From a virus: a stretch of 49,319 nucleotides of DNA. The notes under the pieces were generated by a model. That model saw nothing but the letters and a program-made list of their open reading frames with translations, was not told the DNA's origin and made no database searches. The position numbers and the translations under genes are program-made. Shown piece after piece: positions 974 to 48,960 of this stretch. The DNA lies in the IMG/VR virus record IMGVR_UViG_3300027290_000002, positions 1-49,319 of that record; one strand, given 5' to 3'. Numbering within the stretch: the stretch's first letter is position 1; each line of letters opens with the position of its first letter.

Positions 974-3589
974 TTACACGGGCGTCGGGGTAGGTGTCGG
1001 CGACGGTGATGTAGTTACTTCTACTGATGTGTATCCGCCAGGACCAACCTCATTTACTGCGCGGACGTAAATCGTGTATACACCATAGCTTCCTACATCA
1101 ATAAGTAGAGGAGGTTCAGTCTCCACTGCATCTGTCCAAATTGTATAAGGATCAAGTGGATCACTTAGTGTGTATTGGTATATTGTGATCGGCGATCCGC
1201 CATCATATGGTACTGTGAAGTAAAGTGCAGCTAAAGTATTGCTAGTATCGTATGTTATTGACGGTATCGTCGTTGGGATTGTAGGCACAATTGGTACAAT
1301 TGGTACAACTGGCGTGGCTGTTGGTGTGGCGGTTGGCGTAATCAAGACATCATTGCAATACGAGTTATATGTTGCGCTATCGATGATAGTAGTATTTCCT
1401 GTTGTCAGGGTTATGATGGTAGCGATATCTGAGCGCAATCCATATGTAACGGCGTAATATTCACCGTTATAAATAAGATACTGACCGCTGTATACAAATC
1501 CATCTGCTGCATCTACCCCGTATTTGATAGTAGAGCCGCACATTTGCATAACTAAAATTTCACCACAATCACCAAATCCAACACTAGCATTGGTTATAGT
1601 TGCTGGATATAATGTAACCGGACCGATATAAGCAATTGAATCTGTTTCTTCTCCGTATAATTGGTTTCTTGAACCTCTCAATGTTTTGCGATACCTTTTA
1701 AACTCGACTTCAATTTCAAAATAGAGATTATTTTCTTTTAGGTATGTATCGGTCTCTGATGCAGTTTTACCCATTACAATGGATGCTAATTCGTCTAATT
1801 GATCGTTTGCAAAATTAAACCACGAATCCCCTACATACCATTCATCTAATATTTTCGAATAATTTTCAACATAGTTAAAATTCCAGCTTCTTGATTTTTG
1901 GGCATCAGCGGCAAATGTTTGTGAGCTTAATACATTAGCAACGGCAATATTCCAAAATGAATATCTGCGCTTACATGTTTCTACTGGCTTATTAGTATAG
2001 TTGATATTAGGACGAACATAATACTCGGCACCTCTAACGCTGTAATCAGGCAGTGCAGATACAGAGAATAGAACAGTGGCTTGTTTTATTTTTTCGCCTG
2101 CTTGATATTCTGGTAATTCATATCCATATTGATATACATCTATTATGGTGACATTTTCAATCAACTGGGATGTTTGAGGAACTATCGACACATAATAGTA
2201 ATTTCGATTATCGAGATTGATATATACGACAGATCCTAGATATGGTTTGAGTAATGGATTCTTAGAATACAATACAGTCTTTGATGTATTAAAACACGAC
2301 GGTGTTAATTTGTAAAGCAGTGTATCTTTAGGTTTTGGGATTTCTTGTGAATTACAATCTTCATAAAGATCTACAACAGTATACTCTTCTGTTATCTGCT
2401 GATTATCGTAAACTACCTTTTCAATATACCATCTTACTCCTGGATACTCTGCAAGAGTAACAGCCTTGCCTGGGATTAAAATGCGTTTATTATCAATGAC
2501 AAATAATTCTTTTCGAAGAGTTCCGTTAACAACATCTGGGCATGGCTGATATTTCCAACAGCAATTTGTCAATTTGATTATAACGGGTGCTGCTCTATTG
2601 ATTCTATATTCACACCCACATTCGCAATCTTCAGATGATGCTACTACAGTCCAGTCACCAGCAAGACCATCTATTTGCACTGTAGTATCAGATCCAGCAT
2701 AAAATTGGAATTCATCATTTGTTGCTACGATTTTTTCCTGAGTAAACGTATTGGTTAGGATATAACAAGTATCACTACAACCTTTCTTTGTTGTGAAAAT
2801 AGGATTAAGATTTGTAGTGATTGCTTTATCTGCAACCGATACTTTACTTACTAAGAATCTTTGATCTGGGTATTTGTCCAGAACAACCCCAAGACCTACT
2901 AAATGGCTATAATCATTAGATGAATAAAAAGCAAGACCAGGAACTGAACAAGATGCAAATTTATAATAATAGCTAAAACCTTCTGGTTCTGGTTCACAAA
3001 CCTCAATGACGGACTCTGGGCAATAAAAAGGATTCATTGTAGGCCAGTATTCCCATTTGAGTATGGGGTATCCTGTCTTGATAAATCGACCCATTAAGAA
3101 TCTTTCGTTATTGTTAACCGCATTAAATTTGGATACAAAATACGGTGCCAGGATAGGATTCGGTCTATTTGTTTCATCTGCATATTGTCTTAATGCAAAT
3201 ACATATAAATCATTCAAACGGCAGTCTGCAGATTCTGCTGGAAACGTAGTTTCGAGCCATTTTGAAATAGTTGTTGCGAAGGTGGACCGGTCTGTTATTT
3301 TGATTGGGCAAAATACTGTTACAGGCTTTACTGCGAAACATGAAGTCGATCTGGTTATCGACACCATATCGTTTAACGATTTGTATTTTTCTTTACCTGT
3401 AGATGTATCAAGCAAATATGCAGTTGTTGCTACAATATCCTGCAGAATCGGAACAGCTTCAGATATTTTTTTTGTCTGTGTGTATATAACACCCGTTTGT
3501 TTATCTATCCACTTAAAATGATCATTGATAAGCACAATGGCCGAACCTGCGCTTTCAGTGTCTTTAATTTGTGGATACGAACATGACAT
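974..3589 (-). CDS. Large structural protein with C-terminal FN3-like domain (tail fibre/adhesin candidate)
   Basis: This 871-residue protein has no overall match that I recognise. Residues about 16-29 (INDHFKWID) and 91-133 (around WLETTFP) resemble the next gene upstream, suggesting a shared attachment domain. The middle is cysteine-rich, with clusters such as CECGC and NCCW near residues 330-355. Pro/Thr repeats (TPTATPTATP, then VPIVPIVP) lead into a fibronectin type III-like domain at about 779-862 (GGSPITIYQYTL, YVRAVNEVGPGGYTS), and the chain ends in another TPTPTP tail. FN3 modules and Pro/Thr linkers are common in phage tail and cell-surface binding proteins. A role in host adhesion is inferred from this and from the neighbouring fibre-like genes. 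It starts 2 bases after the upstream stop and has a late-promoter-like octamer at 3596-3603. Confidence 0.7.
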   Translation of the reverse strand: MSCSYPQIKDTESAGSAIVLINDHFKWIDKQTGVIYTQTKKISEAVPILQDIVATTAYLLDTSTGKEKYKSLNDMVSITRSTSCFAVKPVTVFCPIKITDRSTFATTISKWLETTFPAESADCRLNDLYVFALRQYADETNRPNPILAPYFVSKFNAVNNNERFLMGRFIKTGYPILKWEYWPTMNPFYCPESVIEVCEPEPEGFSYYYKFASCSVPGLAFYSSNDYSHLVGLGVVLDKYPDQRFLVSKVSVADKAITTNLNPIFTTKKGCSDTCYILTNTFTQEKIVATNDEFQFYAGSDTTVQIDGLAGDWTVVASSEDCECGCEYRINRAAPVIIKLTNCCWKYQPCPDVVNGTLRKELFVIDNKRILIPGKAVTLAEYPGVRWYIEKVVYDNQQITEEYTVVDLYEDCNSQEIPKPKDTLLYKLTPSCFNTSKTVLYSKNPLLKPYLGSVVYINLDNRNYYYVSIVPQTSQLIENVTIIDVYQYGYELPEYQAGEKIKQATVLFSVSALPDYSVRGAEYYVRPNINYTNKPVETCKRRYSFWNIAVANVLSSQTFAADAQKSRSWNFNYVENYSKILDEWYVGDSWFNFANDQLDELASIVMGKTASETDTYLKENNLYFEIEVEFKRYRKTLRGSRNQLYGEETDSIAYIGPVTLYPATITNASVGFGDCGEILVMQMCGSTIKYGVDAADGFVYSGQYLIYNGEYYAVTYGLRSDIATIITLTTGNTTIIDSATYNSYCNDVLITPTATPTATPVVPIVPIVPTIPTTIPSITYDTSNTLAALYFTVPYDGGSPITIYQYTLSDPLDPYTIWTDAVETEPPLLIDVGSYGVYTIYVRAVNEVGPGGYTSVEVTTSPSPTPTPTPV

Positions 3590-3590
3590 G

Positions 3591-4391
3591 TTAGCTACTT
3601 AAAGGAGTGGTCGTAACATACTGCCAGCGAGATCCGCTATTGTTTACAAATTTATAGTAATTTTGGTAAACGGCTGGAATGTAATTCACTATAGATGAAT
3701 TCAGATTTTCAAGACCTGCAATTTGCGCTAATAATGATACCGAGGTGCCTCCTGCTGCATCAAATCCTGTAGCTTTATTATCGCGTCTGCTTGCCACGTT
3801 ATTGCGGTCATGGCCGATTACTGTTCTTGTATTAGTTACGCAACGACCTCGAATACTGCAGCTACGATAGCTCCAGGTAACAGCAGCTCGGCACTTAGCT
3901 GTCAGGTATCTTGTATCTGGTGCGATTGTTTCTAGATCTTTATAGAACCCCAATGTAAAGACAAATATTTCTTGGCCTTTGCAATAATTCGTTACTGTAT
4001 TCGAATCAATAGTAGCCGTAACAGGGAAGTTAGAATTTAACCACGATGAAATGCTGTTAATGAATGTAGTTTGATTAATGGCATTATTATCTGGTGTCAA
4101 TGGGAAAATAAGAGATATTGGTCTTAACCAACAAGCACTATATGAAGATACGGTGGTATACGCATCGTTCCAATTTGCAGAGTTTGATTTTACAACAGTT
4201 GCAACATCCGCCCATGTGCTGGAAGTCTCTTTGGCTATTGTGTATAAAGCATTCCAATATAAATCAGCCGATAGAGAAATATTGGTTAGCTTGTAATCAA
4301 GCAACGCAAAATTTTGATTAATTGTCGACAGGGTATTGCCTGCACAGATGCGCGGGTCAATTGATGTAATAGATTCGCTAAATGTCGGCAT
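3591..4391 (-). CDS. Virion/tail structural protein sharing N-terminal features with the 871-aa adhesin
   Basis: This 266-residue protein begins with a segment (NTLSTINQNFALLD, residues 19-32) of the N.NF..LD type that I associate with attachment regions of phage fibre and collar proteins. Residues 91-150, including WLNSNFP (117-123), parallel residues 91-135 of the following gene product. The C-terminal half has a Cys/Arg-rich stretch (CRAAVTW, CSIRGRC) and then a short Gly/Ser part. It is probably a short structural partner or connector for the longer adhesin. The start is the only reasonable ATG. The region before it reads ATTATAATTTT rather than a Shine-Dalgarno sequence. Confidence 0.65.
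   Translation of the reverse strand: MPTFSESITSIDPRICAGNTLSTINQNFALLDYKLTNISLSADLYWNALYTIAKETSSTWADVATVVKSNSANWNDAYTTVSSYSACWLRPISLIFPLTPDNNAINQTTFINSISSWLNSNFPVTATIDSNTVTNYCKGQEIFVFTLGFYKDLETIAPDTRYLTAKCRAAVTWSYRSCSIRGRCVTNTRTVIGHDRNNVASRRDNKATGFDAAGGTSVSLLAQIAGLENLNSSIVNYIPAVYQNYYKFVNNSGSRWQYVTTTPLSS
3596..3603 (-). promoter_or_regulatory. T4-late-like octamer TTTAAGTA, 6 nt before the ATG at 3589
   Basis: It matches TATAAATA at six of eight positions and lies inside the end of the upstream gene. On the coding strand there is no purine-rich Shine-Dalgarno sequence; the nearby AGGAG is on the opposite strand. Confidence 0.35.
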
Positions 4392-4452
4392 AAAATTATA
4401 ATGGGGATTGTCGGGCGCTCGTGGATAGAGTATTGCTAAGTCGGCTCACCAT

Positions 4453-4650
4453 CTAGTCTCTGCACCTTTCTAATAATACTGGGACTTTTATTAGAGTTGG
4501 CTCAAGATTGACTCCGAAGAGTTGTCCCTTGAATTCACCCGATATGGGCCGTGATAACCCTGCGCAGCAGCAAGTATTGTTATCGCAAAGCCGTTTAAAC
4601 TTTGCTTCTACATGTCGCCATGCAGTTCGGACTATTTCTTCAATCCCCAT
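4453..4650 (-). CDS. Small Cys-rich hypothetical protein
   Basis: A 65-codon ORF fills most of the gap between the tailspike-like gene and the 266-aa gene, in the same direction. It contains a tight cysteine group (CDNNTCCCAG) at residues 22-31. It is supported by position and by the octamer GGTAAATA six bases before its ATG, the same arrangement seen before many late genes here. No function can be assigned. It could be a small virion protein, or a chance ORF in the spacer. Confidence 0.5.
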   Translation of the reverse strand: MGIEEIVRTAWRHVEAKFKRLCDNNTCCCAGLSRPISGEFKGQLFGVNLEPTLIKVPVLLERCRD

Positions 4651-4656: not shown

Positions 4657-4664
4657 TATTTACC
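4657..4664 (-). promoter_or_regulatory. T4-late-like octamer GGTAAATA, 6 nt before the ATG at 4650
   Basis: It matches the TAAATA core of the T4 late element TATAAATA. By T4 spacing the transcript would start within a base or two of the ATG. Confidence 0.4.
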
Positions 4665-6886: not shown

Positions 6887-6894
6887 TATTTACT
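6887..6894 (-). promoter_or_regulatory. T4-late-like octamer AGTAAATA, 7 nt before the ATG at 6879
   Basis: This lies in the 22-base gap after the 2490-aa gene. The TAAATA core is intact and no Shine-Dalgarno sequence is present. Confidence 0.4.
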
Positions 6895-6901: not shown

Positions 6902-9900
6902 TTAGCTTGACAAAGAATAAAGTGACAAAATACTAGAATTACCACCCAAGGAAAGAACAGACCCATTCGGAGAAAGTGCCATATAACCTTGATGTATTTC
7001 TGGAATGCGTGTGCCGCTAAGTGTTACCACTTCGCAACAACCACTACCAACAGATGACATCTGTTCCCATGTTCTACCACCAATACCAGGACTATCTGAT
7101 CTCAATTCAATAAATGAGATTGGATTTACGATACAATTCTTTTTAACTGGATCATAAGATCCCATCGATGCCCAAGACCAGCACCAGCTATTTTTACACA
7201 TATCAGATCCAATGATTGTGTCAAGAGATACTCTTAGTTTATCAAGATTTGCATACAGATGCTTAATTACCCGATTGATAACGTCTGTAAATACAAGCTC
7301 ATTTTGTCCAATGAAACATTGGCTGAAATCGAATTGCGGTAGTTCTGCTGTCAACATCGGTTCCATATCAATAGATATATTACCAGCAAGATCGATGCTT
7401 CTCACATATTTGGAATGTATGTTTTTGGCGAGCAATTCGAAATTATCTTTGATTCTGTTAAATACGACATTATATACCCAGTCTTGAATCAAATCTTGTT
7501 CTTCGATCAAAATATCATCAGCTTTCCATAGTGCACCTTCAATATCATTTATAATGCTCTTGATTGAAACAAAATCTGTATTTTTATAGATTGATCGGGT
7601 GTCGATAATATAAACGCCTCTACCATACTGACAGATGCTATTGAGTTGAGTTACATATGGCGTATATAAAGGCATAAAATATCCGAGATAATACCCCTGA
7701 GACGTAATCTTGGATATGTGTGTATTATATACGATATAAATTATACCATCATCAATATTATTAGCATGTATTTTAACAGGAGTGCCTGCAAAAGGATTGG
7801 CGATGCCTGATATTGTGCTAACATATTCGCCTGTGTTATTGAATGTGTATATCTGGCCATCTGCTGTTAATACATATACATTCGCTGCAGTATCTGTAGT
7901 GATGGATACTAAATTATTCTTCATTACCCATTCCCCGTGAGAAATGTTATAGAAGTATTGCATCTTATCATTATAAACTTTAATGACATCATTATTCTTG
8001 TCAATCACGTATATCTTGCCTAGATTATAATGGATATCAGTCGGGGTGTTAAATCGATATGGGCGATGAGCATTGCCCAAACCACCGATTTTGTTTAAAA
8101 ATGTAAACGTTCCAGTACTATATTCGATGCTGTAGACATATACGCAATGATTCGCGGTGTCTGTTATGTATATTTCTCCATCGTCATTAATAGCAATGGA
8201 GTCTAGCTTCCCTACGTAATCTTTTTCTCCGACGAGATTAGTATCGTTTAATTTTCTCGAAAGTCGATCCAAATCATATATTTTAATACTATCCGTGATT
8301 GTATTATCTGTATTCCGATCAATTACAATTAATCTATCATTGTATATCTTGGCATCTTGTACGTCATGAAATTCAGTAGCGTCGAATTCTGGGAAAACAT
8401 TAACCCAATCTGATTCGGATACATCATTCCAACGATGGCCTTTGCTATTCTCCGCTCCTAACCATTTATTAAACAATACTGGCAACTTGGTATCATTAAG
8501 TTTTGATTTATTGATCAAATAATCAAAATTAGCAAGCAATTTCTTGAGTGAACTATTAATATTATTAGCATTGGCAATCTCGTTTGGTGCTACATAGATT
8601 TGATCCAAACTATAAGGGAATATTAATTGTTCGTTGTATGTTCGTGCATTTTTGTCAAACGTGTCAAATGCATTAACTACATTGATAGCTCTATCATATT
8701 TCGATTCAATTGTCGTTTGAATTGATGATAGGAGCCCGTATGTATTCGCAGATACGGAGATAGAATATACACCAATGTCATTAAGGTTGTTAAACGCAAA
8801 CGTTTCAGTTGATGCTGGATATACTTGTGTCTGGCCATTAAATGTTATTGATATCGAGCCCAATCCATAATCAGCACCACCACAGTTTGTATTTTTGTAA
8901 TAATTTTTGATTGTCAATGCAGACCCAATAGCATAATAATCTTCATCCCAGAATAGATTGAATGTTGGTATCTTAATCGCCGTAATTGTGTCTACTCTTG
9001 TAGATGTTGTTGTTTTACCAATTTCTACAGAATTGTACGCATTAGTTACTATTGTATCTGTAGATGTGATAGCCAAGACGGCACAGTTGTATGAGTCTGG
9101 ATCTGTGATGATATTATCAGGAATTGTAATGGTGTTATTGTTAAATCCAGAGACTAAGCTATACTCAATCGGTCCATATGTTATTGATTGTTGTGTATCC
9201 AGACTACGAATGTTTACATATGAGGTAGTAGTACCCCCAACAACATATTCGCCTTTATTATTTGAAGTAAATACAGCTGCATCATATAAACTACTAATTG
9301 AATCCGAATAAAAATATACATCTGCAGGCTCTGCTGATATCACAGGCGTTGCCAAATCGATAAATTGCAATGGCTTGAAATAATCAGACGTGACGCTAGA
9401 GTTTGCTGTATAAATTACATTATTGCGATCTTGTAGTAAGTTAATTGCATTTTTAACATTGACATATGCAGTTTTATTATCATCATAATCCGCTCTCGAT
9501 GTAAGAGCAGTTAATGAAGGGACTACATCTAGCTGTAGATAATACCCCTTGACAGATATAGCAGATAATGTACCCGCAGTTCCTTTGATTGTGGCTGATG
9601 CAATTGGTGAATTGGTTACATATTCCTTTTCGTTTCCAATGGTCCATGCATATGTTTTATATCGTGTTCCGAACGAGCTTAACACAAGTGTTTCTGTATG
9701 GCCATTTCCAACGGTTGTTAATTGTGTATTAACTGTTATTGAGTTTAGAGTGTTGACTGCTGACGGTCCTTGGTTGGTAAATGTATTAACCGTCCACACC
9801 TTTGCACTGAGCTCATTGACAGATGCTTGTGGTGATACATATACATAGAGTGGTTTTGACTTCAGAATAGCATACTCTCCATTTTGATATGTAAATTTTG

Positions 9901-12900
9901 ATGATAAATTAAACGTACCAATGCCGGCGGATAATCCAGATAGTGTAGAGGATGTAAATACCAATTTTTGCGTCGCAGATGCGACTGAGTATGTAGTAGA
10001 TAATGCAGATGTTGATATCCATCCATGTTCGACTTGTGGTACAGTCAACGGAGTTAATTCTGCTGTAAATGGTTGTGTTATTGAGCTCAATACGACAAGC
10101 GTATTAATTGTATCAATATTGCCAATATAGAATGCAGATCCGGCAGTACCTGCGATTGCAATATTAAATTTAGAATAGAATATATCTTGACTTGGGAAAT
10201 AATTAACTGGCAATTGTATTACTTGCGTTGGTGCAATACATGCTGGGGTGTGGAATGTTTGAATAGTAAGTCGATCTTTTTCTGGTGCAACTACATTGAG
10301 AGTTTTAGGCATCAATGTTTTGACTTTGTAATAGGCCGTGTTTCTATTGTCAACACCCAAAGGAATTTCTTGCTCATTATTTCCGTTATTGTCACATTTA
10401 AATAAAAGCGAAACACCTCGGATGCTGTCGACATTAAATGTGGTATTCTCGTATACTGGCGGATTATAGATTCTATTGTTTTTGATGAAGTAGTTTCTTA
10501 ATAGAAGACTATTATCAATATCACTATCATATGATACAACACTAAGTCTGCTAACAACAGTACTGCTGTAACTGTATTGAGGTGTTAATAGATTTGTTGT
10601 GTTGTCTTGACCTAAATCCGGGTAATATATCATTTGCCCTGTCAAGATATTATTAGTAACTCCATAGTTTGACAAGGAAGCTCCTGTAACAGAAACACTG
10701 ACAGTTATTGGATTAACTCCAATTTTATCAATTATAATTTCATTAGCATATGTTGCTTGTGTTTTGCTATGCGATGCAATTGTTTTTACAATTGGTGTTC
10801 TGGTGAATGTATTTGGTATTTCTGTAGGCTCGAGCGCATACTCTACAACATTAGTGTATAGAGGTAATGTTTGGAAACTTACATATGGCATCGCAGACAT
10901 ATTCACTACATTTGATGTGCCTGCTGCTGCGGTTATTGGTATAAATTTCGTTGTTGCATACGTTCCGTCAATATCTAAGAATTGAACATTCCAAATAATA
11001 GAGCACGCGCTCGCACTACTGGATGCAAGCATATCTTCGATCGCAGGTAATGCTTTAATTCTGACAGAGTCCGTAGCATCATCATCTGTTGTATGATAAA
11101 AATTCAACACCATTGAATTATATGCTGCTGTTGGATACACAGTAAACGGATCCGCTCTATATTGTAGCTGTCTGCCTAATTTAGGTGATTTATAGATATA
11201 TGTTTTTGATTCTTTGATTGGTGTGGTGATATCATCATATTGGCATCCAATAACTTGTGAGTACATCTTCAATTCATAATCAACTTCTACTGGCGAATCT
11301 GGTGGTGTGATGATGCAGAATTTAGATGATAGAGGGACAAGCGCGGAGGTGAATCGATGTGTTTGTGGGTTGAGTGTTAAAATTCTGCCGTCATATGGCT
11401 CAATAGTCGCGCCTATGGTTTTGTCGTAAATTGTATTGCCTGTCGAATAACGAATATTCAGCATACCGACTTTATTATCGATCAGGTTAAAATTGCGGAA
11501 AAAGTTATTAAATACAGTCTCATTCGCATTGGTGTTAAATGCATATACATACTCAAACAATGTGCCAAGTTCTTTTTCTGCAGTTGCAAGATAATACGCA
11601 ATCGATATGTAATTTGTGCTACTATAATTTGGATTCAACGTCCCTTTGATTAGCGTTGGATAATCAATCGCAGTTTTGATTAGCGATATCTCATAATTGA
11701 ATCTAGCGTAGTTTTGATCGGCGTAGTATTTAAGAATTTCGTCATATTTCGTTTGTGTTATGGCACCGCGGCGCAGTGTGTCTTTAAATGCCTTGACATA
11801 CAAATCAAATACAGTCTCAAGACCAAGACTGAATATCAATTTAACAATATTCAAATTGGTACCCAAATATGCAGGATTACTTAATGTTAATGACGAAGCA
11901 ACATCATATGCGGCAGGCCAGGCTGCAAAGACAAAGCTCTTGGTCAACAAATCTATGATAACGTTATATTCCTCTGCAGTAATACTTGTGCTTCCGATTA
12001 ATTTGCCAATACTGAATAAATCATTTGTCAATACAAAGCTGAGAGTATCATTTCCAGTAGACCCTGCAGCTGCTAGAGATGAGAGAACGGGGCTCAGTTC
12101 CGCACACAGACTTTCAATTGGAGTCTTAAATTCATTCGCAGTACTACTCGACGTCGACTGCAAGATATATGCACGACACTCTTCATTAAACGTGGTCTGT
12201 ACATTTTTGAAATAATTGCCTGTTGTGGTGAGCTTGTAGAATATTTCAGTATCGAAATCATCCAGGGATATGCTCGATCTCGATACTCCAGCCAATTCTT
12301 TTATTGTTTGCTGTATGAGATTAATGAATACTTTAGCACCGCCATTAATAAATGATATAGATTGATCAAATATAGATGTTTTAATTGCGGTATTTAATCC
12401 GTACAATTGTAATGCAATTTTATTATCATCGTATAAATCAGATGCATCTGTTTCATAGAACAATGCAACATCTCTTAATGACATTGACAGATCTCCTGAC
12501 AAGAATGCAGTTTGAGCTGAAATCGCACTAGTTTCGACTTGATATGTTTGGTTTGCAGATCTTCTTAGTTCGTATGGATATGTTATGTCATACACATTCA
12601 TAGACACTTCATATGGTGTTAATTGCCCGTTTGATTCAATTTTATATACAGATAGAGTCGGTGTTTGAGTTCTATTGTCTACTTTAGTAACCGCACCCAA
12701 GCAATTGAATTGCAAGTAGCCATAATATGCATCGCTTGAAGCGAATGGTAGTATTGTAGTGCCGTAATTGCTAACTATATGTGGTGTAATAAAAGCAGAA
12801 TTGCTTGTCACAGCTGTTCTAGCACTTAGGGTGTTAAACACCATTTGAAGCCCGTTGACTTTTGATGTATTGGTATTTGAAGTTATTGTACTTGTGTATG

Positions 12901-14380: not shown

Positions 14381-14388
14381 TATTTAGA
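14381..14388 (-). promoter_or_regulatory. T4-late-like octamer TCTAAATA, 6 nt before the ATG at 14374
   Basis: It matches TATAAATA at seven of eight positions. It sits in the 25-base gap between the 1090-aa and 2490-aa genes, which predicts a near-leaderless transcript for the giant gene. Confidence 0.5.
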
Positions 14389-17677: not shown

Positions 17678-17685
17678 TATTTAGG
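17678..17685 (-). promoter_or_regulatory. T4-late-like octamer CCTAAATA, 5 nt before the ATG at 17672
   Basis: The TAAATA core lies exactly 5 bases before the start codon. With T4 late-promoter geometry the A of ATG would be +1. Confidence 0.45.
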
Positions 17686-18250: not shown

Positions 18251-18258
18251 TATTTACG
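18251..18258 (-). promoter_or_regulatory. T4-late-like octamer CGTAAATA, 5 nt before the ATG at 18245
   Basis: Five-base spacing to the ATG predicts a leaderless transcript. It abuts the -35 element of the opposite-facing sigma70-like promoter. Confidence 0.45.
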
Positions 18259-18287
18259 TTGCAAATCTTTTAAACAAAGATTATAAT
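18259..18287 (+). promoter_or_regulatory. Sigma70-like promoter for the early-type plus-strand cluster
   Basis: TTGCAA at 18259-18264, a 17-base spacer, and a perfect TATAAT at 18282-18287. The ATG of the kinase gene is at 18293, only 5 bases after the -10 box, so the transcript would have essentially no leader. Confidence 0.65.
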
Positions 18288-22590: not shown

Positions 22591-22598
22591 TACTTATG
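22591..22598 (-). promoter_or_regulatory. T4-late-like octamer CATAAGTA, 5 nt before the tail-tube ATG
   Basis: CATAAGTA-TTTTT-ATG matches the arrangement GATAAATA-TTTTT-ATG at 48947-48960. No Shine-Dalgarno sequence is present. Confidence 0.5.
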
Positions 22599-22962: not shown

Positions 22963-22970
22963 TACTTATC
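22963..22970 (-). promoter_or_regulatory. T4-late-like octamer GATAAGTA, 11 nt before the ATG at 22951
   Basis: It overlaps the end of the endonuclease-like gene and would give a leader of about 6 bases. Confidence 0.35.
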
Positions 22971-27119: not shown

Positions 27120-27127
27120 TACTTACA
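27120..27127 (-). promoter_or_regulatory. T4-late-like octamer TGTAAGTA, 10 nt before the tail sheath ATG
   Basis: It sits in the 42-base gap between the tube-like gene and the sheath gene. Predicted leader length is about 5 bases. Confidence 0.4.
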
Positions 27128-29473: not shown

Positions 29474-29481
29474 TACTTATA
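29474..29481 (-). promoter_or_regulatory. T4-late-like octamer TATAAGTA before the terminase gene
   Basis: It matches TATAAATA at seven of eight positions, 11 nt before the ATG at 29462. The same octamer occurs divergently at 29528-29535. Confidence 0.5.
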
Positions 29482-29527: not shown

Positions 29528-29535
29528 TATAAGTA
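29528..29535 (+). promoter_or_regulatory. T4-late-like octamer TATAAGTA before the acidic head-type gene
   Basis: It is identical to the divergent terminase element and lies 13 nt before the ATG at 29549. TATAAT at 29541-29546 is an alternative -10. Confidence 0.45.
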
Positions 29536-34943: not shown

Positions 34944-34951
34944 AATAAATA
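34944..34951 (+). promoter_or_regulatory. T4-late-like octamer AATAAATA, 4 nt before the ATG at 34956
   Basis: Two overlapping copies of AATAAATA are present (34940-34947 and 34944-34951). Either would place the transcription start within about 3 bases of the ATG. The region is also the divergent queC upstream region. Confidence 0.45.
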
Positions 34952-36832: not shown

Positions 36833-36839
36833 CTCTCTA

Positions 36840-36849
36840 AGTATAAATA
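36840..36849. promoter_or_regulatory. Overlapping divergent promoters: late TATAAATA (+) and -10-like TATACT (-)
   Basis: A perfect T4 late element TATAAATA occupies 36842-36849 on the plus strand, 8 nt before the ATG at 36858. TATACT occupies 36845-36840 on the minus strand, 7 nt before the primase ATG. The two elements share four bases. Confidence 0.6.
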
Positions 36850-39795: not shown

Positions 39796-39803
39796 TGTAA
39801 ATA
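39796..39803 (+). promoter_or_regulatory. T4-late-like octamer TGTAAATA, 5 nt before the ATG at 39809
   Basis: It matches TATAAATA at seven of eight positions. The 5-base spacing would put +1 on the A of the start codon. Confidence 0.5.
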
Positions 39804-39808: not shown

Positions 39809-41842
39809 ATGGCCGATGAATCCACACGCATTAATCTATCTGACGTACGTATCAATATGTCAGATCTGCAAGATTTGATCGGAAGGCGTGAGACTGAAGA
39901 AATTTCGTATGCGCTAGCACGTGCAATTAAAGAAAAGGTATCAGCATCGATAACTAAATCTGATTTATTAATTGATCTAGGAGATAGGGTCAATAAAATT
40001 TTAGATTCTACAATGGATGATTCATTGGCAAATGCAATTCGCCCATCGATAATAGAATCTCTGAAGCTTAATTTATCTGACAATATCAAGAATACTAATT
40101 TCATTGATACTTCAAAGTCAGTCAATATATTCGACGAATTAAAAATACCTCTAGCTGAACAATATAGTACATTCGCTGCAGAATTATTTCAGCGCGCCTC
40201 ATCTCAAACGTCAAATATAGATTTCAAAGCGTTAATTGAGGCTGGGTTTAATAATTCATTATTTGCACCTCAAAGTATTCCTCAGATAAATATCGAGAGC
40301 ATTAAAGCTGATTTATCAAAATTGGCTTCAAACAATGCTCAGCCCTCGGCGCCTACTGTGAATTATGCATCTAATGATATGCTAAATGCATTGAAGGTGC
40401 AGAATACAACACAACAACAAAATGCAATATTTGATGCAGAGGTGACTGCTACTCCTGTTGTTCTTCAAGATGTCGGAGATAATGCTGTTAGTAAATTGAA
40501 GGGATTGTTCGCAGCTTCTGATCAAATTAGTGCAGGCAAACGGAATGAAGTATCTTCTGAAGAAATGGGAGGCGGGGGTCTATTAGGTGGCTTGGTAGAT
40601 TCAGTTTCTGAATTATTTGGAGGGGGCGGATCTGCCAGATCTAGAAAACCATCTGGCGGGGGATCTCGTTCGGGTTCCGGCGGCGCGACCGGTTCTGGTT
40701 CCAGACCAAGAGGTTCGCGTGCAGCAAGAGCACCCAAACCCTCAAGAGGGGTTGTTTCGAGAGGAGCAGGTGCTGTTAGACGTGCTGCCACGAGAAGCGC
40801 TAAGACCGTTGCCAAAATAGGAGGCAAAGCGTTGCGAGCTGCCGGGGGTATTGCAAAGGGTGCTGGCGCAATGGCTTCATCAGCAGGTAAAATGCTAGGC
40901 CCTCTCGCACTTGCCGTAACTGCGGGGCAGGCTGTCGGGACTGTTCAAGACTTATTATCTGATGAAGGCAAGGAGCGTCTATTAATGGAATCTGAGCAAA
41001 TGAGAAAGCGAAGTGGTGTTGGTGGATTCCTAGAAAATACTTTGGATTTAGTTTCGAACCCATCTGATTATCTTGCAAAGACTGGCATGGTTGCTGGTGG
41101 TGATATCGCCAAAAAAATCTACGGATCTGATCAGATAGATGCTAATTTAGTGGCAAGCAATAAGCAAAATACAGATTTAGCTCAAAGTGCACGTGCGTCT
41201 ATTGAGAAAAGAAATGAGTTATTGGGTGCAACTAATGAAGGTAAAGAATTGCTACAAAATTTGAATATCGGAGCTTCGTTAATTAAAAGCAATGCTGCTG
41301 CTGTTAAAACAGATGCAGGTGAAATTCAGCGAATAAATCCTGGCATGGCTGCTGTTATTCTTGACAAGTATCAGGGAGACACACAAAAAACAATCGACGA
41401 GATGAGACGAATCAATTCGTTGCCTGGTGCTGATGCTGTTAAAGAAATTGAATTATTAAAGCAACAATTTAATAAACTACAACAAAGTTCTTCTGAAAGA
41501 ACAACACCAGTGCAAAGCACCCCAATAGTAAATCCGTCACCAATGCTCGCACCCCCACAGGACTATAGCACTCCGGCTGTTACTCGGAATACCGAAAGCA
41601 TAACGCCTCTGGTTGCATCGAGCAGTGATATCAAGAACATGACATCAGTCATTTCGTCAAAATTAGACACACTAAACAATATGATCCCACAACTTGCACC
41701 ACCAGATAGCGGCAGTGATACATCTGTTGTTGTTAGTACCGGTGGTGAATCTGGTGGTGGATTTGGGGGATCTAGAGATCCAGCATATGAATTTAGAATT
41801 TCATCATGGAATCGTATTCGAGGCAATTCAATCGTACATTAA
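39809..41842 (+). CDS. Tape-measure/hub protein candidate (T4 gp29-like position)
   Basis: This 677-residue protein lies between gp26-like and gp48-like genes, where T4 has gp29. The N-terminal 240 residues are helical and acidic. Residues about 252-350 form an unusual Gly/Ser/Arg-rich region (GGGGSARSRKPSGGGSRSGSG, abbreviated) followed by Ala/Gly-rich, partly hydrophobic helices (AAGGIAKGAGAMASS, GPLALAVTAGQAVG). The last 300 residues are helical, then Pro/Ser-rich, ending in glycine repeats. A hydrophobic glycine-rich stretch in a long helical protein fits tape-measure proteins that enter the membrane at ejection. The length is similar to T4 gp29 (590). Sequence similarity itself is not visible to me. 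Confidence 0.55.
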   Translation: MADESTRINLSDVRINMSDLQDLIGRRETEEISYALARAIKEKVSASITKSDLLIDLGDRVNKILDSTMDDSLANAIRPSIIESLKLNLSDNIKNTNFIDTSKSVNIFDELKIPLAEQYSTFAAELFQRASSQTSNIDFKALIEAGFNNSLFAPQSIPQINIESIKADLSKLASNNAQPSAPTVNYASNDMLNALKVQNTTQQQNAIFDAEVTATPVVLQDVGDNAVSKLKGLFAASDQISAGKRNEVSSEEMGGGGLLGGLVDSVSELFGGGGSARSRKPSGGGSRSGSGGATGSGSRPRGSRAARAPKPSRGVVSRGAGAVRRAATRSAKTVAKIGGKALRAAGGIAKGAGAMASSAGKMLGPLALAVTAGQAVGTVQDLLSDEGKERLLMESEQMRKRSGVGGFLENTLDLVSNPSDYLAKTGMVAGGDIAKKIYGSDQIDANLVASNKQNTDLAQSARASIEKRNELLGATNEGKELLQNLNIGASLIKSNAAAVKTDAGEIQRINPGMAAVILDKYQGDTQKTIDEMRRINSLPGADAVKEIELLKQQFNKLQQSSSERTTPVQSTPIVNPSPMLAPPQDYSTPAVTRNTESITPLVASSSDIKNMTSVISSKLDTLNNMIPQLAPPDSGSDTSVVVSTGGESGGGFGGSRDPAYEFRISSWNRIRGNSIVH

Positions 41843-42919: not shown

Positions 42920-42972
42920 AATATATTTGTACAATGAAAAAATTAACCAAAACAAATATTGATATATACAAA

Positions 42973-43284
42973 ATGTCTTCCTTGTTCAACAAGTATGAAG
43001 ATAATGATGGTTTTGTGTTTTTTAATATTCTTAAAAGAATCAATCTCAATGCTGATAATCTAAATGACTTTGAAATATTTGAGCCATATGTAATAAAGCC
43101 AGGAGATTCGTATACAAATATTGCATATAAATATTATGGCAATCTTAATGTGTGGTGGGTTATATGCACATTAAATAAAATTGACAATCCCTTTATTAAA
43201 CCTGCAATAGGCGCTCGCATATATTTGTTGCGGCTCAATTATATGTCTCAGCTATTAGATCAATTATCATTTGCCAATGGATAA
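42973..43284 (+). CDS. Baseplate wedge protein gp53-like (LysM-like)
   Basis: From the ATG at 42973 (MSSLFNKYEDND) it has 103 residues; an in-frame ATG at 42934 would add 13 residues. YVIKPGDSYTNIAYKYYGNLNVWWVICTLN corresponds to the LysM-like core shared with T4 gp53 (a KGSPRPEELANIIYGNPQLYWVLL-type segment). Gp53 joins baseplate wedges around the hub. The gene overlaps the next one by 8 bases. Confidence 0.75.
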   Translation: MSSLFNKYEDNDGFVFFNILKRINLNADNLNDFEIFEPYVIKPGDSYTNIAYKYYGNLNVWWVICTLNKIDNPFIKPAIGARIYLLRLNYMSQLLDQLSFANG

Positions 43285-44826: not shown

Positions 44827-45798
44827 ATGGCATTTACGGTTGCATCCACATATGATGGCGAATATCTACAAGACGAAGAATTTTACGTCTATGTAAGCTC
44901 TGATCCTAATATCACACGTCAAGAAGCTCGAGTCATTGATGAGATACGATGGTTCCTACAGACACAAAATAGTATTGATCTAATTGCATGCTATGACAAA
45001 AAGCTGCATACGGAAGAGGGCAATCCAGATGCAAACGAAAGATACTGCGAAAATGTGAGAGCCAATACAAGACCTTGCAAACTTATCTACCCAAAAATGT
45101 CGGCAGCACAGCTGCGTTACTTTGTACGCAAAATTGAGAACATTCATCCGGAGATAGCAAGCTTGGTGTCTGTCAATGAAATGCATCAACCTATTTCCCC
45201 CTCTGTGGCAACCATTGCAATGTTCTCATCAGATGCGTCTTCTACTGAGTTACAAAATCAATCCAAGACTCATACTTTTACTACTCGGGAGCAATTCAAT
45301 GGATTAGTATACGGCACAGATCCAACTATACCGGCAGTTATGCCCTTGAATGTAATCCAGCAACAATTACCACAGGTTAATGAGTGGGTCGATAAATTAA
45401 ATGCTTCTGTTAATGCTTTGTTCATCGAGACTCTGCCAGAAAAAACATACGGCAAGGTTAAATCTTCTTATAATCCCGGTGACGCACATGGGTTGGTGTT
45501 GAACAACGATGCACTAAAAGCAACTCGAGTGTCTGCTGCTATAAGCAGTATTCTTAGTAATACTAAAAAACGATATAAAAATCGATTTAAGATGATGGAT
45601 CATTTGACACCATTGGTATCTCGTATGGATCAAAGTAAAGTGACTCTTCTTTATAAATTCGATATTGAAGGAATTTTAACTGAAGTCGATCCTAATGGAT
45701 CCAAAAAAGGAAGTAATTTGGTTAGCAATAAAATATTATACGCATATTTGGAGCGATTTAATGATGACAACGTAAGTGGTAAATATATTCAATCATAA
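44827..45798 (+). CDS. Hypothetical protein between hub and spike genes
   Basis: The ATG at 44827 (MAFTVASTYDGEY) gives 323 residues. The N-terminal 130 residues are acidic and mixed. The centre (LNVIQQQLPQVNEWVDKLNASV) is helical, and the C-terminus (KKRYKNRFKMMDHLTPLVS) is basic. No family is recognised. It overlaps the spike start by one base (TAATG-type junction), so it is probably made together with the gp5-like protein and may be a hub accessory or spike chaperone. Confidence 0.6.
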   Translation: MAFTVASTYDGEYLQDEEFYVYVSSDPNITRQEARVIDEIRWFLQTQNSIDLIACYDKKLHTEEGNPDANERYCENVRANTRPCKLIYPKMSAAQLRYFVRKIENIHPEIASLVSVNEMHQPISPSVATIAMFSSDASSTELQNQSKTHTFTTREQFNGLVYGTDPTIPAVMPLNVIQQQLPQVNEWVDKLNASVNALFIETLPEKTYGKVKSSYNPGDAHGLVLNNDALKATRVSAAISSILSNTKKRYKNRFKMMDHLTPLVSRMDQSKVTLLYKFDIEGILTEVDPNGSKKGSNLVSNKILYAYLERFNDDNVSGKYIQS

Positions 45799-48407
45799 TG
45801 AAAAAACAGTATATTAGAAACTATCTTGGAATAGTCGTACAAAACAATGACCCACTTAAAAGAGGTCGTGTTAAGGTATGGGTTCCTCATGTTGATATGA
45901 CTGTATATGATGGTTGGAATAATAGCCAGAAGAATAAGCAGTTTAATTTTGTTGGTAAAAATACTTTTACGGATCTCAATGCAAATATTATAGAACAATT
46001 AAGATTATTTTTACCGTGGGCTGAAATGGCCATGCCAGTAGTTGGTTCTGGTAATACATCTGGTGTCTACAATTCTGTGCTTGATCGTGGATCTATATCT
46101 GATAAATCTGAATATTTGTCAGAAGGATTAGATTTTGTTAGTGACCGAAGCGCTGAGGAACAAAATGATGCTCGCAAAGAAGTTGGTGAATGGAAAGACA
46201 TCTTGCCGACAACACTTGACAACTTATCAAGAACGGACGGATTGCCTAAAACTAAAGGCAAATCATATCCGACGTTGGTAGATGACAAATATGTTCTTGG
46301 GAATAAGCCTGCCAAGTTATACCAAGACAAACCCATTTTCGATGCCTTTGCAACGAGTGGTCCTACTCAATTAAATCGATATACAAATCCTTATAGCAAT
46401 TCGTATAGACCGATGCCATATTCCAATACTGCTGCTGGGTCGTTTGCCATTCCTAATGTGGGTGCTCACGTATGGGTTTTCTTTGAAAATGGCGATCCTA
46501 TGAAGCCGGTGATCTTTGCTGTATCATATGGTCAAGAAGACTGGAAGGGCATATATGATAGTCATAACGATACTACTTCTGTCGGTGCGTCACCTGATTA
46601 TCCTGGTAAATTTGAGAATGGAATAGGCAGAGAGGATAAAGAATACGCAGCAAGCAAGGATGATATGATTTATCGAAGCAAGTACTCTTTAGTGCAAAGA
46701 GGAGGTGCACTGACATTCGTCAATACAGTTGAACGAGAGATCCTCAATTTAACGCATTTTAGCGGTTCATATAAAGAATTCAATAACTACACTACTGTTG
46801 AGTTTGCTGCGAATAACGATCAGCGTCTTGTGTTAAATGACGCGTTCTATACAGTCAATGGCCATCGCTCTGAGTATGTCGGTGGTGATTACGATTTAAT
46901 TATCAAAGGAGCTTATAGGGTTACGTTTGGTGATCCCAAAAATCACAAAGCCCCTGCTGCGTCTATCAAGAGATTGATGGAAGAATTCCATAAAAAGTAT
47001 AATCTCCCTTTTGAAATACAGCGTTCAATTATTGATAGTGCCGGAGGGCAATCCGGCACATTTGCTGCATGTCCTACTTGTAATCTAGCAGCATACGCAG
47101 CTCTTGAAAATGTTGCAGATGAAGTGGCCCAATCGATGTTCGATATCAAGTGTCCAACAGAGACTAGCCTAAAATCATTTCCAAAAGGATATGGCGTTGC
47201 TACTATACCAACAGAGATCTGTTTAACTTGTGGTGGTACGGGCAAGAGCCCTTCGACACAAGATGGTTCATGGGCAAGAAATTCTGATAAAGCAGATATG
47301 ACGAGTGCGTTAGTTTCGCTCCAGACCCAAATGTATCCATATGAAGAGCAATTAGGAAATACTGCAGACGCCGTTATCAACTATGGAAAGAATCATGCTG
47401 TTGTCGTTGGTTCTGAGATGCATGATTTCCAATCATATCGAGTAGATCCTATTGGTAAGTTATCTCCGGCTGGTGTCAAAATTTCCCCTGGCACTGCTTA
47501 CCAAAGATTAGCAGCTACTCCATTGGTAGAAAAAGTTCATGTAGATGCGCCTCCTACTGGATCATTCAATTTAACCTGTGGCTATAAATGTTCCATGCTT
47601 GTGGGATCTGGTGGTGTTTCCATTAAGACTACAGGTGCTGTCGATATCGGTGGTTCTGTCACAACTATAACCGGCAAGCAATTGGTTCTGTCTTCTGATA
47701 ATGAAGTATATGTTGATGGTGGACGCCGCGCACATATTACTGCAGACAACATTAGCCTGGTTCCTAAAGGCAAAGATGGTGTTGCTGCTGTTTATGTGGG
47801 TGGGAACTTAGAGGTAGATAAAAATATCATCACCAAAGGTGGTGCGTACGTAGAAGGTGAATTATATGTCCAACACATTAGTGCTCCTATCGAATATCAA
47901 TCGACTGAAACAGAGGTGACCGCTGCACATATTGTTCCTGAAATTGAAATTGGTTACATTCGAAAGGGTACAAAATTTGGTTATGATCTATTTGGTGTAG
48001 AGATTGTTACTGAAGAAGATATTCCTATCTATGGTAAAACCTCAGAAGAACCTCAAGTCTACACAAGACCTCACTTCCACTTATTCAAAAACGTACCATT
48101 GCAGCTTTATGGTACTAGCGCAGAGATGAGAACAGATGCAGTTGGAATGAATGCTTCCCAAGCAAAGCTAGCTAAACCTGCAGCGTATGTTCCTGACATT
48201 ACCAAAAAGTTCAAAGGGGTTGATTTTAGTTCTTTGACTGTAGGAGATCCAGTTCTATCCACAGCAAACTCTGATGTGTCACTTGATGCTGTACTATCGC
48301 TTGGTGATATCGTTGCACCCGATATCGTTATGGAGTCTGTAGAAAAATTACCACTATGTCCTGCTGAACACGATCTCAAGACTGGATTGACTCCAGTAAT
48401 GGATTAA
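45798..48407 (+). CDS. Central spike/baseplate hub protein (T4 gp5-like), no lysozyme domain seen
   Basis: In this 869-residue protein, residues 1-250 contain an OB-fold typical of gp5/VgrG (YLGIVVQNNDPLKRGRVKVWVP, IPNVGAHVWVFFENGDPMKPV) split by a polar insertion. A second conserved part runs EREILNLTHFSGSYKEFNN. Cys425-x2-Cys428, Cys452 and Cys475-x2-Cys478-GGTG form a DnaJ-like zinc-type module. Residues about 588-696 are repetitive beta sequence (GSGGVSIKTTGAVDIGGSVTTI, VYVGGNLEVDKNIITKGGAYVEG) that likely forms the trimeric spike helix. I see no T4-like lysozyme segment, so peptidoglycan cleavage, if present in the tail, is encoded elsewhere. Confidence 0.85.
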   Translation: MKKQYIRNYLGIVVQNNDPLKRGRVKVWVPHVDMTVYDGWNNSQKNKQFNFVGKNTFTDLNANIIEQLRLFLPWAEMAMPVVGSGNTSGVYNSVLDRGSISDKSEYLSEGLDFVSDRSAEEQNDARKEVGEWKDILPTTLDNLSRTDGLPKTKGKSYPTLVDDKYVLGNKPAKLYQDKPIFDAFATSGPTQLNRYTNPYSNSYRPMPYSNTAAGSFAIPNVGAHVWVFFENGDPMKPVIFAVSYGQEDWKGIYDSHNDTTSVGASPDYPGKFENGIGREDKEYAASKDDMIYRSKYSLVQRGGALTFVNTVEREILNLTHFSGSYKEFNNYTTVEFAANNDQRLVLNDAFYTVNGHRSEYVGGDYDLIIKGAYRVTFGDPKNHKAPAASIKRLMEEFHKKYNLPFEIQRSIIDSAGGQSGTFAACPTCNLAAYAALENVADEVAQSMFDIKCPTETSLKSFPKGYGVATIPTEICLTCGGTGKSPSTQDGSWARNSDKADMTSALVSLQTQMYPYEEQLGNTADAVINYGKNHAVVVGSEMHDFQSYRVDPIGKLSPAGVKISPGTAYQRLAATPLVEKVHVDAPPTGSFNLTCGYKCSMLVGSGGVSIKTTGAVDIGGSVTTITGKQLVLSSDNEVYVDGGRRAHITADNISLVPKGKDGVAAVYVGGNLEVDKNIITKGGAYVEGELYVQHISAPIEYQSTETEVTAAHIVPEIEIGYIRKGTKFGYDLFGVEIVTEEDIPIYGKTSEEPQVYTRPHFHLFKNVPLQLYGTSAEMRTDAVGMNASQAKLAKPAAYVPDITKKFKGVDFSSLTVGDPVLSTANSDVSLDAVLSLGDIVAPDIVMESVEKLPLCPAEHDLKTGLTPVMD

Positions 48408-48718: not shown

Positions 48719-48722
48719 GATG

Positions 48723-48947
48723 TTATATTGGTGTGCTGCTTAGCTTCTGTTTAACAATTTCTGCTTTCTTTTTAGCATCTGCTGCTTCTAGTTCCTTTTG
48801 TTTTACCTTTGCATCGGCTGCTGCTGCTTCGAGCTCTGAAGCTTTTTTCTTCGCAGACGTCACTTCTGGGGATTCAAGTGCGGAACCTAGTTCTTCATTA
48901 AGGGTATTTAAAATTTCCTCTATAAGAGAATTGAATTTGAAACTCAT
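48723..48947 (-). CDS. Small Ala/Lys/Glu coiled-coil protein
   Basis: This 74-residue protein starts MSFKFNSLIEEILNTLNEELG and then has a long charged helix (KKKASELEAAAADAKVKQKE, abbreviated) with heptad-like spacing. It could be a scaffold or core component. The opposite strand also stays open, but its Ser/Ala/Phe composition is that of a shadow frame. GATAAATA lies 5 nt before the ATG, the best example of the promoter-start arrangement. Confidence 0.6.
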   Translation of the reverse strand: MSFKFNSLIEEILNTLNEELGSALESPEVTSAKKKASELEAAAADAKVKQKELEAADAKKKAEIVKQKLSSTPI

Positions 48948-48952
48948 AAAAA

Positions 48953-48960
48953 TATTTATC
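48953..48960 (-). promoter_or_regulatory. T4-late-like octamer GATAAATA, 5 nt before the ATG at 48947
   Basis: It matches TATAAATA at seven of eight positions. GATAAATA-TTTTT-ATG predicts a leaderless mRNA, and the octamer overlaps the stop codon of the coding remnant upstream. Confidence 0.5.

Follow-up and report, generated by a model that had tools for sequence, protein, structure and literature searches.

Promoters that abut start codons point to leaderless or nearly leaderless mRNAs in a group of uncultured T4-type phages

INTRODUCTION

How does a phage begin translation if its promoters stand directly before its start codons? The question is raised by a stretch of 49,319 nucleotides of viral DNA (IMG/VR record IMGVR_UViG_3300027290_000002; here, the window), in which octamers resembling the late promoters of T4 were noticed 4 to 8 nucleotides (nt) before 11 ATG codons, a layout from which the original prediction was that late mRNAs are leaderless and are translated without Shine-Dalgarno (SD) pairing. 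Late transcription in phages is usually referred to that of T4, whose promoters, in the region of its genome examined, lie well upstream of SD-bearing starts. The reading favored here, at a probability of about 0.87, is that the window belongs to a group of uncultured T4-type phages in which many promoters abut the start codon, with mRNAs that would be leaderless or nearly so and with initiation that would be free of SD pairing. It draws on features read directly from the DNA, namely the motif and its position, SD depletion, an initiator signature, the distribution of these traits among relatives, and a gp55 homologue. For annotation, gene finders that expect SD sequences may misplace such starts, and in promoter calling, -10 boxes adjoining start codons are easily missed. 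Leaderless phage mRNAs are already known, as a review reports for Thermus phage phiYS40 (PMC3594737).

RESULTS AND DISCUSSION

Late-type promoters in the window

All 11 octamers of the original prediction were found with the gaps that it gave when the window was checked at the corresponding starts (Table 1). The core hexamer, TAA[AG]TA, also lies 10 to 13 nt before the ATG of five further genes (22951-, 27109-, 29462-, 29549+, and 45798+), so that gaps in the window range from about 4 to 13 nt with a sharp mode at 5. Enrichment concerns the hexamer at a fixed distance rather than the full octamer TATAAATA, of which the window has 3 copies against an expected 7.4. SD sequences had been said to be missing from these starts, and the sole detail that failed was at 36858+, where an AAGGA ends 4 nt before the ATG. 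This AAGGA lies upstream of the RNA start predicted from the hexamer at 36844 and would be inside the RNA if a second hexamer (TAAGTA at 36838, gap 14) drives transcription. The 47-bp divergent gap between two genes holds both a late-type octamer and an early-type promoter on opposite strands (18251..18258 and 18259..18287). The hexamer of the tail sheath gene and its gap of 10 nt are identical in two relatives (G004 and L021). The window also contains a clamp-loader match (31431-31814, phrog_225).

TABLE 1 Predicted promoters of the window and their distance from the ATG
Feature	Position	Strand	Gap (nt)	Start codon or gene
Late-type promoter octamer TTTAAGTA	3596..3603	-	6	974-3589
Late-type octamer GGTAAATA	4657..4664	-	6	4453-4650
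Late-type octamer AGTAAATA	6887..6894	-	7	ATG at 6879
Late-type octamer TCTAAATA	14381..14388	-	6	6902-14374 (2490 aa)
Late-type octamer CCTAAATA	17678..17685	-	5	14400-17672
Late-type octamer CGTAAATA	18251..18258	-	5	17694-18245
Early-type sigma70-like promoter TTGCAA-N17-TATAAT	18259..18287	+	5	ATG at 18293
Late-type octamer CATAAGTA	22591..22598	-	5	Tail tube gene 21944-22585 (phrog_45)
Late-type octamer GATAAGTA	22963..22970	-	11	22601-22951
Late-type octamer TGTAAGTA	27120..27127	-	10	Tail sheath gene 24779-27109 (phrog_23)
Late-type octamer TATAAGTA	29474..29481	-	11	Terminase large subunit gene 27774-29462
Late-type octamer TATAAGTA	29528..29535	+	13	29549-30286
Late-type octamer AATAAATA	34944..34951	+	4	ATG at 34956 (gap 8 from another hexamer at 34942)
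Perfect TATAAATA	36842..36849	+	8	ATG at 36858; AGGA in between
Late-type octamer TGTAAATA	39796..39803	+	5	39809-41842
Late-type octamer GGTAAATA	45778..45785	+	12	45798-48407
Late-type octamer GATAAATA	48953..48960	-	5	48723-48947

Positional enrichment across the genome and the clade

The expected enrichment in position was borne out genome-wide in G001, a 195.9-kb record that is near-identical to the window and has 61% A+T. Of its 243 genes, 27 have TAA[AG]TA at a gap of 5 or 6 nt from the first ATG, against a background of 0.40 hexamer per position further upstream (Poisson P of about 1e-31), and in its 225 nonredundant upstream regions TAAATA gives 19 matches at gaps 5 and 6, compared with 6 for the best of 14 other permutations. 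The hexamer in G001 most often starts at -11 or -12. The peak is repeated in four relatives, with gap-5 hexamers in 6 of 85 genes in G004, 13 of 51 in G006, 15 of 54 in G007, and 7 of 30 in G008, and it is less sharp in G009 (3 of 36). Gene starts in these counts were taken as the first ATG of the longest nonoverlapping open reading frames, not from annotation, so that genes with GTG or TTG starts are misplaced or missed.

Pooling of 639 genes from 27 contigs of the clade gave 91 hexamers at gap 5, 35 at gap 6, and 29 at gap 7, with 0 to 4 per position beyond 20 nt; the corresponding numbers for 566 nonredundant upstream regions were 75, 32, and 22, against a mean of 1.24. Among 1,296 hexamers, the codon at gap 5 was ATG in 133 cases, GTG in 17, TTG in 16, and CTG in 11, whereas the same codons at gap 20 numbered 24, 7, 25, and 16, and only ATG is clearly raised at gap 5. 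The 27 contigs were picked by tree position, not by trait, and take in three that are SD users by threshold (L034, L071, and L073) and one that is mixed (L038). Contigs with fewer than four called genes and most near-duplicates were left out, including L014, a near-twin of the window, and L039, which closely matches L037 and whose 8 genes have 4 near hexamers and 2 SD words. Some close relatives stay among the 27 contigs, and the counts were redone both on nonredundant upstream regions and on 18 contigs, with an unchanged outcome (68 gap-5 sites, 67 of them with C or T at -1).

Initiator signature and SD depletion

The original prediction had reckoned that a 5-nt gap would make the A of the ATG the first transcribed base, and this arithmetic is right, as the T4 octamer spans -13 to -6 according to the notes on positions -13 and -12 in a review (PMC2988020). 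A pyrimidine (C or T) occupies -1 in 90 of the 91 gap-5 sites (74 of 75 nonredundant), compared with 228 of 372 genes without the signal (211 of 350 nonredundant; P of 1e-13). A pyrimidine before the A of the ATG at 74 of 75 sites is read as the mark of a transcription start on that A. At gap 7 the purine shifts with the hexamer, the base at hexamer +6 being A or G in 26 of 29 sites (20 of 22 nonredundant); gap-6 sites lack the signature (16 of 32 and 13 of 32). Gaps of 6 to 13 nt would leave leaders of 1 to 8 nt, and thus some genes would not be strictly leaderless. The signal found here is TA-like, lies about 10 bp upstream, and is aggregated in position, and one study holds that a gene preceded by such a signal is most probably leaderless (PMC3160421).

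SD words are at background in the clade, being found in 26 of 566 nonredundant upstream regions where 29 represent the background, whereas ten sister contigs of the SD type (a set that leaves out L063 and L083) have them in 106 of 202. Among 171 genes with a hexamer 4 to 8 nt from the ATG, 5 also have an SD word. Where the upstream gene is on the same strand, 179 of 340 genes without the signal overlap it or sit no more than 5 nt from it, compared with 8 of 157 for genes with the late signal. Translation of these operon-internal genes, which mostly lack an SD sequence and about half of which overlap or abut the preceding gene, is probably passed on from the upstream gene.

Early-type promoters in the same register

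Other genes of G001 have sigma70-type promoters in the same register, so that two promoter classes look leaderless. The -35 sequence TTG[AC] starts at -34 in 32 of the 243 genes (20 of 225 nonredundant, where the next highest position has 8), and a -10 box stands at gap 5 in 31 genes (17 nonredundant); these -10 boxes start at -11. The combined pattern TTG-N12-CC-N6-TATANT-N5-ATG has 36 matches in G001, and the reversed pattern has 0. The early-type signal is clear in G001 only, as the counts at -34 and at -10 gap 5 are 2 and 5 in G004, 2 and 2 in both G006 and G007, 0 and 0 in G008, and 3 and 0 in G009. Given these promoters of G001, the layout is not a trait of late genes alone, and the original prediction was framed too narrowly.

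Sheath orthologues with and without an SD sequence

Sister SD-type contigs in IMG/VR (G005, L025, L045, L049, L055, and others) share the sheath family of the window and retain a short SD-bearing leader. In the window clade, TAA[AG]TA lies 5 to 13 nt from the sheath ATG, whereas the sister contigs have AAAAGGAG or a similar sequence upstream; L045 and L049 carry an identical TAAATA hexamer 17 nt before the ATG. To within 2 residues, the sheath start codon is conserved in 22 of the 23 rows of an N-terminus table from which phage phiM12 was left out, although it is part of the comparator counts, and in which no N-terminal ATG was found for row L075. The sheath tree comprised 59 of 82 sequences, near-duplicates and short ones having been removed by hand. 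Against the favored reading, a few near sites also occur in two SD-using comparators (1 in Mosig and 2 in HTVC008M), and 5 hexamers stand at gap 6 in G005, which is of the SD type. Searches by tblastn with the sheaths of the window, L041, L028, and L049 found no named close relative; no record had a place covering 80% of the query, and all were below 60% identity.

Taken with the positional peak, the pyrimidine at -1, and the enrichment of ATG, these SD-bearing orthologues support the prediction that late mRNAs of the window clade are leaderless. Sister phages keep a leader that seems to have been lost from many genes of this diverse clade, and the same sheath protein with the same start codon, with or apparently without a leader, offers a natural paired comparison that bears on what in the host or the phage permits a lytic program without SD pairing.

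Alternative explanations

An artifact of A/T richness and of the TAA stop codons of upstream genes might be suspected in a genome with the base composition of G001, since TAA is both a stop codon and part of the hexamer. The hexamer TAA is, however, the stop of the upstream gene in only 8 of 95 gap-5 sites, permuted hexamers give no comparable peak, and comparator phages of similar G+C lack it; these counts refute an origin by chance or from stop codons, for which we leave a vanishingly small probability. It is very improbable, though less so, that an SD-poor host reads the hexamer as a non-SD signal for translation, comparable to the A/T-rich initiation regions of Bacteroidetes, with transcription starting elsewhere. 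The near-background level of SD words in all genes, promoter proximal or not, and the A/T-rich region preceding the ATG would fit such a signal. Yet a Flavobacterium phage with a sheath that is a distant relative of the L028 sheath shows no gap-5 hexamer, although SD words precede just 1 of its 23 genes; the signal in the clade is an exact hexamer in one register rather than A/T content, and the -35 and -10 boxes of early-type genes, together with the pyrimidine-purine step at -1/+1, are signals of transcription, not of translation.

A closer competitor, unlikely on balance but deserving of weight, is that the hexamer does set the transcription start but that many mRNAs keep leaders of a few nucleotides that matter, such that "very-short-leader" would be the better name. 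Of the 171 genes whose hexamer lies at 4 to 8 nt, 80 have it at a gap other than 5, and the five window genes at 10 to 13 nt can be read in this way; against this, the mode falls sharply at 5. A leader of 1 to 8 nt cannot accommodate both an SD helix and a spacer, so that the consequence for initiation would be nearly the same as under the favored reading of leaderless or nearly leaderless mRNAs.

Comparison with known systems

A gp55 homologue is encoded at 97482-98117 of G001, outside the window (hmmsearch E value of 2.9e-19 with a profile of six gp55 proteins). The logo of the 91 gap-5 sites has no conserved -35 box and only A/T richness around -28, and the T and A that open the T4 octamer are only partly kept, the first base being mixed and the second A in 0.58 of sites. 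The clade thus resembles the T4 late system (TATAAATA, gp55/gp33/gp45), as described in a review (PMC2988020), in lacking a -35 box, in having a TAAATA core one helical turn ahead of the start, and in encoding a gp55 homologue. In contrast to the clade peak at 5 nt, the hexamer in the region of T4 examined is commonest 27 to 28 nt before the ATG, with 7 hexamers among 47 genes, 26 of which are preceded by SD words.

Phage phiYS40 is similar in that its middle and late transcripts are mostly leaderless according to the review, which credits raised IF2 and lowered IF3 (PMC3594737); a crude -10 search of a 40-kb stretch of phiYS40 peaked only weakly, with 4 boxes at gap 6 among 46 genes. Leaderless genes of Deinococcus-Thermus and Actinobacteria likewise have a -10 box adjoining the open reading frame and an mRNA that starts at or beside the start codon, according to two studies (PMC3160421 and PMC12340547), but these are promoters for cellular sigma factors, whereas the clade has two classes in one register, one of them of the phage gp55 type. 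The lambda cI mRNA, described as leaderless in PMC9031893, concerns one gene rather than a genome-wide layout. The AR9 paper states that phage transcripts are often leaderless, yet the untranslated regions of AR9 are 26 to 491 nt long (PMC5312081). In passages of two further papers, "leaderless" occurs solely in a reference title (a methylophage paper, PMC9004378) and leaders are not mentioned (PMC3037559). No report of leaderless late genes in a T4-type phage was among the matches listed, which comprised titles and the starts of abstracts, most subscription journals being outside the search.

Proposed mechanism, translation factors, and host

The RNA 5' ends, the early or late timing of the two promoter classes, the ribosome route, and the host are matters that we infer. 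Late genes would use T4-type promoters of the gp55 class and early-type genes would use sigma70-type promoters, both placed such that the first RNA base would most likely be the A of the first ATG or lie a few bases upstream of that A. Ribosomes, probably in the 70S form, would then bind the AUG of these leaderless or nearly leaderless mRNAs without SD pairing. Either an adapted host ribosome or a dedicated factor, as the original prediction proposed, may make such initiation possible.

Two routes to the host were followed and rejected. The best 80 matches of the phage GDP-mannose dehydratase-like protein in bacterial genomes are scattered over phyla at 54% identity or less, and this search therefore gives no host. 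The early-promoter pattern of G001 occurs in 9 of 198 genomes of the phylum of an Actinomycetota record and in 9 of 299 of that of a Legionellales record, with one match each, and the reversed pattern gives 4 and 11 genomes, respectively; we propose no host.

A dedicated ribosomal protein was looked for and rejected as a candidate: domains of bS21 (PF01165) and S1 (PF00575) were found in 0 of 12 and 0 of 7 records, respectively, most of them fragments and G001 the largest, and no initiation factor was among the Pfam families listed (25 of 28 and 25 of 44) for 113 G001 proteins, about half of those called. One initiator-like tRNA, a CAT tRNA, is encoded by G001 at 23971-24045, which corresponds to 3971-4045 of L092. 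More speculatively, the clade may have rewired its expression for SD-free 70S initiation and supply its own initiator tRNA, with phage messages outcompeting leadered host messages during infection, a scenario that we regard as distinctly unlikely.

Late-type promoters at start codons

All 11 late-promoter octamers that the original prediction placed directly before start codons were found in the window, with gaps (nucleotides between promoter hexamer and first ATG) as claimed. TATAAATA occurs there 3 times against 7.4 expected, i.e., more rarely than expected, so the finding concerns placement. The positional enrichment was also seen genome-wide in G001, a 195,888-base record nearly identical to the window, where the hexamer TAA[AG]TA stood at gap 5 in 16/243 genes and at gap 6 in 11/243, against a background mean of 0.40 per position over gaps 20 to 54 (Poisson P about 1e-31). 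Among 225 nonredundant G001 upstream regions, TAAATA occupied gap 5 or 6 in 19, and the best of 14 other permutations reached 6. Of the 255 hexamers on both strands of G001, 27 were followed by ATG at offset 5 and 17 at offset 6, with 0 to 11 at other offsets up to 39. The pattern was repeated in the IMG/VR contigs G004 and G006 to G009; the octamer observation is real and genome-wide. Gap 5 after 1,296 hexamers held 133 ATG, 17 GTG, 16 TTG, and 11 CTG codons, compared with 24, 7, 25, and 16, respectively, at gap 20, and among these four codons only ATG was clearly enriched at gap 5.

Bacterial transcription tends to begin on a purine (+1) preceded by a pyrimidine (-1). At 91 gap-5 sites pooled from the 27 contigs of the window's clade, the -1 base was a pyrimidine in 90 (73 T and 17 C), with a single A and no G, whereas it was C or T in 228/372 genes of the same contigs with no promoter signal (Fisher P 1e-15); with nonredundant upstream regions the counts were 74/75 and 211/350 (P 1e-13). 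This pyrimidine agrees with a start on the A of ATG, of which it would be an independent sign. At gap 7, where the start is expected 2 nt before the ATG, hexamer+5 was C or T in 22/29 sites and hexamer+6 was A or G in 26/29, which argues that the initiator tracks the promoter and not the ATG; the corresponding counts were 9/12 and 8/12 at gap 8 and 8/13 and 11/13 at gap 9. Gap-6 sites had no initiator signature at these positions (16/32 and 13/32), perhaps because the start can shift to the A of ATG. The T4 octamer lies at -13 to -6, judging from remarks on positions -13 and -12 in a review (PMC2988020), and a gap of 5 would then make the A of ATG position +1. The claim that the first transcribed base falls on this A is thus consistent with both the T4 octamer position and the pyrimidine at -1, and these sequence patterns are best read as leaderless or near-leaderless transcription.

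Shine-Dalgarno content

Shine-Dalgarno (SD) words, defined as GGAG, GAGG, or AGGA within -18 to -4, preceded 28/639 genes of the 27 contigs (29 in a background stretch), 112/212 genes of ten sister contigs, and 109/245 genes of eight named phages (T4, Mosig, HTVC008M, S-T4, Ochrobactrum OC, phiM12, DLP6, and P-SSM2), in which a hexamer stood 4 to 8 nt from the ATG in 3/245 genes. SD words are at background level in the 27 contigs. The stated lack of SD sequences at the 11 starts fails at 36858+, which has AAGGA; RNA would begin downstream of AAGGA from the hexamer at 36844 and upstream of it from that at 36838. Absence of SD sequences alone is insufficient for the pattern, since a Flavobacterium phage had an SD word in 1/23 genes and no hexamer at gap 5. 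The control phage phiYS40, reviewed as leaderless, gave a weak peak (among 46 genes, a gap-6 count of 4 versus 0.64 per position), with SD words before 13; either the search was not tuned to phiYS40 or the stretch was ill chosen.

Neither promoter signal was present at 401/635 genes with a scorable neighbor. Genes without a signal overlapped or began within 5 nt of the same-strand upstream gene in 179/340 cases (median gap, 3 nt), compared with 8/157 for late-signal genes (median gap, 28 nt), a contrast that would fit operons headed by a leaderless gene.

Early-type promoters

"Early" and "late" denote promoter types here, not timings. Other G001 genes carried a second layout, with TTG[AC] beginning exactly at -34 in 32/243 (20/225 nonredundant, against 8 at the runner-up position) and, in 31 (17 nonredundant), a TATAAT, TATATT, or TATAGT box at gap 5. 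The two elements correspond to the -35 and -10 boxes of sigma70-type promoters, are separated by a 17-nt spacer, and share the register of the late hexamer. The -1 base was C or T at 13 of 14 nonredundant early-type promoters. TTG-N12-CC-N6-TATANT-N5-ATG occurred 36 times in G001, mostly within gene arrays close to its ends, and the reverse pattern 0 times. Among genes whose TA...T box stands at gap 5, the spacer CC was present in 29/44, versus 10/208 others; scans of two bacterial phyla showed it to be rare there. The early-type pattern was clear in G001 only, compared with G004 and G006 to G009. In the window, 18293+ (TTGCAA-N17-TATAAT-N5-ATG) lies opposite the late-type 18245-, and the 47 bp between them contain both promoters.

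At the G001 ends (loci L100 and L091), early-type promoters have a fixed CC(C) in the 17-nt spacer, -19 to -17 from the ATG. The repeated early-type genes there, whose near-identical upstream regions begin AGTTTATATC, probably encode a family of small paralogous proteins.

Leaderless mRNAs and T4-type late promoters are already known in kind; the literature matches listed included no report of their combination in a T4-type clade or in both G001 promoter classes.

Sheath orthologues

The sheath N terminus M(A)RxIxSPG is common to hexamer-type and SD-type contigs. Within the window's clade, sheath genes are preceded by CACTAAATATTAAC (G008), GCCATAAATAATATT (G006), and TGTAAGTAGATTGTAATT (window), with gaps of 5 to 13 nt. 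Loci L045 and L049 have a hexamer followed by a AAAAGGAG leader (gap 17), L025 has a hexamer 36 nt from the ATG plus an SD sequence, and L055 and G005 have an SD sequence but lack the hexamer within the 42 nt displayed. The ATG used and the alignment differed by at most 2 residues in 22/23 rows, the exception being L075; alignments of the tail tube (offsets of up to 16 residues) and the terminase (far larger offsets) were of lower quality and were not relied on.

In a rapidly built tree with 59 sheath sequences, the window belonged to a group of 39 rows (SH-aLRT 91, not starred). The larger contigs in this group show the near-ATG layout; two SD-type groups (5 and 6 rows) adjoin it, and the named phages lie outside on long branches. 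The program counted 7 state changes. Odd rows in the group included L034, L039, L071, and L073, with 4 to 8 called genes each, and L014 and L038, "mixed" by threshold. A single gain or loss of the near-ATG layout is likely, though not proven.

Identity of the phage

The 49,319-base window is from a tailed phage with PHROG family matches. Its sheath matched 2,606 of 50,697 named phage records (tblastn), with identity below 60% throughout and no match spanning more than 80% of the query, so the phage is T4-like yet distant from cultured phages. Sheath and tube genes are adjacent in T4, whereas a 579-amino-acid gene separates them here.

Features of the window
Feature	Position	Basis
Tail tube	21944-22585	PHROG match
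579-aa gene between sheath and tube	22966-24705	PHROG match labelled HNH or homing endonuclease, 372 bits
Tail sheath	24779-27109	PHROG match
Terminase large subunit	27774-29462	PHROG match
GroES-like co-chaperonin	31075-31416	phrog_3188, E 9e-7
Clamp-loader subunit	31431-31814	PHROG match
Primase	35798-36832	PHROG match
254-aa protein	37232-37996	Weak tail-tube match (phrog_45), C terminus only
Baseplate wedge subunit	42934-43284	PHROG match

Transcription and translation factors

According to a review on leaderless mRNA (PMC9031893), 70S ribosomes bind leaderless mRNA at an AUG at or close to the 5' end, and extra initiator tRNA strongly favors such mRNAs. G001 encodes a gp55-type sigma factor (97482-98117, E 2.9e-19) and 29 tRNA genes. 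One of these, with a CAT anticodon (3971-4045 of locus L092, in a stretch holding 28 tRNA genes), shares 79% identity, across 99% of its length, with an E. coli tRNA-Met bearing the initiator hallmarks of a mismatched first pair and a GGG/CCC anticodon stem. The phage tRNA has U1-A72 as its first pair and U-A as the third anticodon-stem pair, so it is initiator-like and not a proven initiator. Something similar occurs in 363 named phage records, so this tRNA is not special to the clade. Searches for bS21 (12 records) and S1 domains (7 records), with most of the records being fragments, found none. Among 130 loci scanned, most of them fragments, tRNA genes were present in L091 and L092 (both G001) and L115 only; the last, a 10.5-kb piece of G006, has seven, including a tRNA-Tyr with the anticodon ATA as called by ARAGORN.
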